Shown here: positions 1-36,715 of the stretch, piece by piece
Numbering within the stretch: position 1 is the first letter of the stretch
Layout of the letters: every line of letters begins with the position of its first letter
Source: Clostridia bacterium
GTDB lineage: Bacteria; Bacillota; Clostridia; Oscillospirales; CAG-272
DNA: 40,713 bases
NCBI GenBank assembly: GCA_017411605.1
Contig: JAFQPR010000084.1
Span: forward strand, 1-40,713
Reading direction: 5' to 3'
The notes under the pieces: generated by a model
The model's input: only the letters and a program-made list of their open reading frames with translations
Database searches by the model: none
Told to the model about the DNA's origin: nothing
Program-made: the position numbers and the translations under genes

Positions 1-20
1 ACGACTATTTTCGTTTCGAC

Positions 21-172
21 AAGCCGATTTTATCGGCTTTTGCATAATTAAATTTCAAAAAATTTAATTATGCTCTACATTCATTGCAATGGGTTAGTCC
101 AAATTTTTATAAAAAATTTGGCACAATATCAAAGATATTGTTTCGAAATAGCGTGAAATCATGCTATTTCGA
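21..172. repeat. Chain of six end-to-end hairpins
   Basis: Six inverted repeats follow one another with only 1-2 bases between them: 21-39 (8-bp arms), 42-73 (14-bp perfect arms, loop 56-59), 75-97 (9 pairs, one bulge, two G.T), 99-121 (10-bp arms), 123-141 (8-bp arms) and 143-172 (10-bp arms, continuing inward through one G.T pair). The arms differ from one another, so this is a row of independent palindromes and not one duplicated unit. Four-fifths of the 152 bases are paired. No coding frame is evident. A weaker stem follows at 178-190. It lies downstream of the minus-strand regulator gene and could also end its transcript. Function unknown. Confidence 0.85.
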
Positions 173-261
173 CTTACTATAACCATTATAATTTTATCTT
201 TTATTGTTCTATCTTATAAGAATAGTTTATTCTCCGATTATTTCCAAGGCAAGCTTTTATC

Positions 262-36666: not shown

Positions 36667-36715
36667 TAAAAAGGATAATAACGATTATAGAATGTCGTTA
36701 TGAGGAGGCTATACA

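Follow-up and report, generated by a model that had tools for sequence, protein, structure and literature searches.

The window, by which we mean the whole 40,713-nucleotide stretch analyzed here (G000:C78:1–40713 in our genome set, where G000 is the organism's own genome of 104 contigs), opens inside one copy of a 211-bp mobile element of type A, recognized from the other copies in the same genome and from a hairpin detector. This copy occupies positions 1–189 of the forward strand and retains 189 of the 211 bases; the contig begins within the element, so that the first 22, with the left end, are lost. It begins with the 3′ part of a first hairpin, H1 (1–20), which is intact in other copies and has here lost its 5′ arm at the contig start. 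There follow H2 (21–39, 8 pairs) and H3 (42–73, 14 pairs), a central spacer, and then H4 (99–121, 10 pairs), H5 (123–141, 8 pairs) and H6 (143–172, 14 positions with one mismatch, the arms being 93% complementary), with H2 to H6 found by both an inverted-repeat search and the hairpin detector. The left side of the spacer (75–85) is the partner of the element's left end, absent in this copy, and would close a left cloverleaf, while its right side (88–98) is the partner of 177–187 and would close a right one; between them lies a GC (86–87) that separates the two cloverleaves, at the place equivalent to the AT at the outer ends. In the sub-type seen in the window this right closing stem is weak, with 6 of 11 positions pairing in register, and a shift in the fold improves the pairing. 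The copy ends with the right terminal inverted repeat (168–189, reverse strand, reading inward ATAATGGTTATAGTAAGTCGAA), which includes the right copy of the target duplication, AT, at 188–189. Its neighbor is a gene for a Crp-type regulator (cNMP_binding and HTH_Crp_2 domains) on the opposite strand, whose 3′ end lies 72 bases from the element. Elsewhere in the window, upstream of a gene, a left end fused with a right end forms a 24-base scar, ATAACGATTATAGAATGTCGTTAT (36678–36701). G000:C96:9277 and C98:50342 carry scars like it, and the form looks like a deletion between the TGTCG repeats of both element ends.

The row of hairpins at 21–172, which an earlier note on this DNA had described, is real and far beyond chance. 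Positions 1–190 fold as RNA to −59.8 kcal mol–1, compared to a mean of −26.3 (sd 3.46, z = −9.68), with none of 200 shuffles equaling this value, and the other strand gives z = −8.86, again with no shuffle as good. Further, a strand-symmetric detector finds five strong hairpins in this interval, a number reached by 1 of 500 dinucleotide shuffles. The note had counted six hairpins, and six is indeed the number of the element (the cut H1 plus H2 to H6), but only five strong hairpins lie within bases 21–172, together with a palindrome in the spacer: the 9-pair palindrome noted at about 75–97 is the central spacer, the sides of which pair better with the two element ends than with each other. The suggestion that the structure may continue to the left was borne out by the 22 further bases found there in uncut copies, and the statement that the arms share no sequence holds in general, with the exception of a TCGAAA common to H1 and H6.

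Searching the organism's own genome with window positions 1–260 returned 20 places, matching over 57–260 bases at 97–100% identity. The flanks of these copies are unrelated, and the repeat therefore has sharp borders: ATAATGATTATAGAATGTCGAA on the left and, reading inward, the terminal repeat given above on the right. Both ends carry ATAATGRTTRTAG, and the terminal inverted repeats, which begin ATAATGRTTATAG and which were a motif required by our search, are inverted and imperfect. The end pattern, allowing up to 3 mismatches, occurs at 37 places in this genome, compared to none for a reversed control pattern. Complete copies are mostly 190–215 bp in length with no gene inside, such that many similar gene-less copies at unrelated sites are found, as expected of a MITE. 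Fourteen contig ends, in 13 of the 104 contigs and including the start of the window, fall inside element copies, which break the assembly at these points. Lone left ends from which the rest has been deleted occur at L173:4689, L148:5418, L164:228 and elsewhere, often before a gene, and a TATAAT within the left end may act as a −10 box reading inward.

To describe insertion, we collected all inverted ends lying 40–330 bp apart in the fetched sequence, obtaining 97 spans, of which 96 differ in sequence, about three are spurious (as indicated by four overlaps among them), and 74 are 185–215 bp long. The preferred target is TT-AT-AA: next to spans 150 bp or longer, T stands at −2 and −1 in 62 and 61 of 81 cases, and A at +1 and +2 in 58 and 52 of 80. 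Insertion duplicates the 2-bp AT, since in two interrupted genes only a join that leaves a single AT restores the frame. At the first of these, the copy in C84 (which escaped the span search because its end carries one inserted base), only this one of three joins gives a continuous 311 codons, with an Abhydrolase_3 domain (E = 4.2e-55) spanning the junction. A scripted test of 88 spans gave L233:3693–3889 as the second clear interrupted gene, where again only the single-AT join is continuous, giving 236 codons with an ICMT domain (E = 1.6e-10) across the junction. The copy in C58, read by eye, lies at a stop codon that stays intact, and neighboring elements have just AT in common at no fewer than five places (G000:C24, G012:C22, L161, L164 and L193). 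Terminal inverted repeats and a target site duplication (AT), two further hallmarks of a MITE, are both found here.

The hairpin layout is a property of the family. Six or seven hairpins were detected in 70 of 74 full-length copies and five in the other four, with at most five in 370 shuffles using the same strand-symmetric detector. The spacer reads CATT-GC-AATG in most copies, and across 22 nonredundant copies each of its sides is complementary to the element end on that side, with 9.45 (right) and 9.23 (left) of 11 pairs formed; when partners were permuted among copies, a control that ignores relatedness, this was matched in 0 and 3 of 20000 permutations. Each end thus pairs with one side of the spacer, and so each half consists of a closing stem and three hairpins, such that the element is predicted to fold as two adjacent four-way junctions, or a “double cloverleaf”. 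RNAalifold recovers both closing stems unaided. When 150 strands (the two strands of 75 copies, one of them the spurious span L177:6632–6847) were folded with DNA parameters, both closing stems of at least 5 pairs formed in 134, one in 10 and neither in 6, and six hairpins in 141, while both closing stems appeared in 3 of 225 shuffles. With the same parameters, types B and C fold to the same double cloverleaf with other sequences. A 250-bp variant at L157:2887–3136 carries a long imperfect hairpin in place of one of the six, in a layout that is still three plus three, and reduced forms of 54–68 bp with one hairpin, both ends and differing loops were seen at 10 places (L145, L156, L206, L221, L229, L176, L236, L238, L022 and L020).

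We note that the two halves resemble one another in inverse orientation. A covariance model of the right half matches left halves on the opposite strand, mostly at 40–64 bits in A/G-type copies, compared to a baseline of about 35 bits or less when the right half itself is reversed; left halves of type B, at 26–34 bits, do not exceed this baseline. Because the right-half model finds left halves in this way, the element probably represents a single cloverleaf unit of about 100 bp present as an inverted dimer, in which the inner AT would have changed to GC. Single-cloverleaf insertions were sought with the same model, and only truncated copies were seen.

The own genome also holds a sub-type B, the arm sequences of which differ from those of type A, and chimeras with a left half of type B and a right half of type A that meet at the spacer. 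Relatives occur in 5 of 59 near genomes, the own included: in G012 and G016 of the same genus, and in G045 and G055 of other families, these four showing 70–81% identity; G045 additionally carries a sub-type C, whose arms are unrelated. Scanning named genomes returned at least 100 stretches, of which the 80 matches listed fall in 36 assemblies; among the matches listed, all 36 are titled Clostridia bacterium or Oscillospiraceae bacterium, and 24 of the 36 titles name an animal, which is a ruminant in all 24 cases, while 12 name none. When 394 genomes were drawn evenly from the order, the exact end was present in 6, which is a lower bound given the exact pattern, with 29, 13 and then, in four genomes, 1 end each. 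Such a patchy distribution is what a mobile element would show. The exact end pattern had no matches in a viral contig set, and plasmids gave no match to the element; a phage match of 35 nt at 88.6% was taken as chance. The proposal that this could be a lineage-specific, spreading intergenic repeat is thus upheld by copies elsewhere in the own and related genomes.

Compensating changes preserve the fold, and the layout is retained among sub-types whose arms are unrelated. In an alignment of 22 copies with mutual identity below 88%, 84.0% of cells pair, compared to 78.8% when shuffled and at most 48.8% in slid versions, and changes on both sides are seen in 42 of 87 pairs, compared to 20.9 expected, with none of 500 shuffles, in which relatedness is ignored, reaching any of these measures. 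The overall pairing figure is lowered because H3 aligns badly (49.7% paired). In the right half alone, 96.2% of cells pair (slid versions at most 49.3%), with both-side changes in 20 of 35 pairs, compared to 6.0. The outcome that the earlier note had named as counting against its interpretation, namely no copies elsewhere and noncompensating changes in the arms, therefore did not occur, and taken as a whole that interpretation is partly supported.

A helix selected as RNA tolerates G·U and loses A·C. Among the hairpins of 58 copies oriented by rule, we counted 3392 Watson–Crick pairs, 28 G·T and 25 A·C, although this test is modest, because the rule left 17 of 75 copies without an orientation and misassigned at least one; the 22 aligned copies give 1370 Watson–Crick pairs, 31 G·T, 29 A·C and 115 others. 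G·T and A·C each make up about 1% or less of hairpin pairs, or about 2% in the aligned set. Their similar rarity favors constraint on DNA, or correction of the arms during replication, over RNA, and suggests that the constraint on the fold acts on DNA, while fitting also a neutral mechanism that corrects palindrome arms.

An autonomous copy or helper was sought among the IS30, IS630, IS110, Y1 and resolvase-domain families in 14 carrier genomes, all of them incomplete MAGs, and none was found. Inverted end pairs more than 400 bp apart number four in 100 loci, each being two separate short elements and none autonomous, and in G000, an incomplete genome, a list of ends read by eye shows no inverted pair of 13-base ends 0.7–4 kb apart. 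RUP repeats are derivatives of the IS630/Tc1 type; such an origin was rejected for our element, as a DDE_3 transposase occurs in 0 of the 14 genomes and the duplication is AT, not TA. Likewise rejected were derivation from IS110/IS1111, with a DEDD transposase above the cutoff in one genome (three at E ≤ 0.001), and from IS30, which is present in 4 of 14, its seven loci lacking the element end motif at up to 5 mismatches. Nor do the data support the suggested link with a transposase of RAYT or IS200 type: Y1 genes are present in 10 of the 14 carrier genomes and were not seen in the other four (incomplete) ones, the three IS200-like genes read have other ends, and the AT duplication argues against both REP/RAYT and IS200/IS605. 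Two IS200-like genes, at L301:237 (G000) and L303:1406 (G055), are preceded by a lone end-like stretch, with 3 and 2 mismatches, respectively, which we judge to be part of the IS itself. In G045, an AAA_14/DUF4143 gene (C17:35502–36995, or L235:2503–3996) has half-elements on both sides, at a locus that adjoins an intact type C element with AT in common; three of the 16 DUF4143 genes in the 14 genomes have ends (up to 3 mismatches, in fetched flanks), and because only this one is flanked on both sides, we read the locus as probably two decayed elements and not as an autonomous copy.

Taking these observations together, we consider it likely that the element is a non-autonomous, MITE-like DNA transposon of about 190–215 bp, gene-less, with a two-cloverleaf fold that is kept by compensation. 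A transposase supplied in trans would make cuts staggered by the 2-bp AT outside AATG...CATT, and folded DNA, besides the end sequence, would be needed by the machinery or by the host, in the form of extruded cruciforms or of single strands during replication. We infer this need because the arms vary freely while the pairs do not, and because mismatches are equally rare on both strands. A more tentative and, in our view, unlikely version is that the transposon is recognized by its shape, with a structure-specific or junction-processing enzyme, which the host may encode, acting on the two Holliday-like four-way junctions; this would account both for the lack of a transposase family common to the carriers and for free arms with fixed pairing. 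Integron attC sites and IS200/IS605 ends are cases in which an enzyme recognizes folded DNA, although these act on a single strand and create no duplication of 2 bp, whereas the constraint on our element is alike on both strands.

It is also conceivable, if doubtful, that the hairpins have no function, and that this is an ordinary MITE whose arms are kept perfect by template switching in replication. This would explain perfect arms and symmetric mismatches, and the one-hairpin forms described above imply that the full fold may be dispensable, but it predicts neither the joint change of closing-stem strands that lie some 80–100 bases apart nor the recurrence of three plus three hairpins with closing stems in three sub-types. 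We give similarly little weight to the idea that a serine or tyrosine recombinase, using AT as its 2-bp core, excises and inserts the element in place of a DDE transposase. The target TT-AT-AA does resemble the CATT-AT-AATG junction of abutting elements, which share just AT, and resolvase-domain genes are present in 9 of the 14 carrier genomes; however, the other 5, which are incomplete, have none, and none of the 20 resolvase loci fetched shows element ends at up to 3 mismatches.

That the element is a structured RNA, regulatory or acting in trans, which is mobile by chance and whose fold is selected in the transcript, appears improbable. Both strands give very stable RNA folds, the multibranch layout is conserved, and copies lie near genes, with 44 of 66 between codirectional genes, but G·T and A·C are equal although RNA helices tolerate G·U, which weakens the multi-stem RNA of the earlier note; moreover, an Rfam search to E = 1 gave no match within the element, and the arms of the sub-types have no common sequence. 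A terminator, insulator or mRNA 3′-end protector of the adjacent regulator gene, for which the position of the window copy just past the end of that gene speaks, is very improbable, since the neighbors differ among copies (16 divergent, 44 codirectional and only 6 convergent pairs among the 66, from a crude ORF caller with no background control) and copies interrupt genes.

Among known systems, the BOX and RUP repeats of Streptococcus pneumoniae (PMC3049150) are likewise short, noncoding and highly base-paired, with terminal inverted repeats and a target duplication; BOX is modular, and these repeats insert into each other, as does our element. However, their terminal repeats are described as hybridized to each other, whereas in our element the partner of each end is the central spacer, and the six hairpins in two cloverleaves, the AT duplication and the hosts also differ (PMC3049150). 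Prokaryotic MITEs such as QMITE2 and Chunjie are similar in being below 500 bp, gene-less and rich in stem-loops, with terminal inverted repeats and an AT-rich target, and are distinguished by our finding no related autonomous IS for the present element and by its double cloverleaf with compensating changes (PMC10969869). REP/BIME sequences with RAYT are also palindromic, intergenic and repeated, but REPs are 20–40 bp in length (PMC3733652), unlike an element of 190–215 bp with terminal inverted repeats, an AT duplication and no RAYT link found. A literature search of a limited collection gave no description of such an element. Our best reading is of a new family of MITE-like element, ordinary in kind, with an unusual, structure-conserving architecture.

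Mobile elements are usually recognized through their end sequence. Across several families of one order, the present element can exchange most of its sequence, but not its DNA fold of two cloverleaves. Should movement require this fold, the mobility of a duplex element would depend on the shape of its DNA, which would be easily testable. In gut Clostridia, the element also breaks assemblies and supplies movable ends near gene starts.
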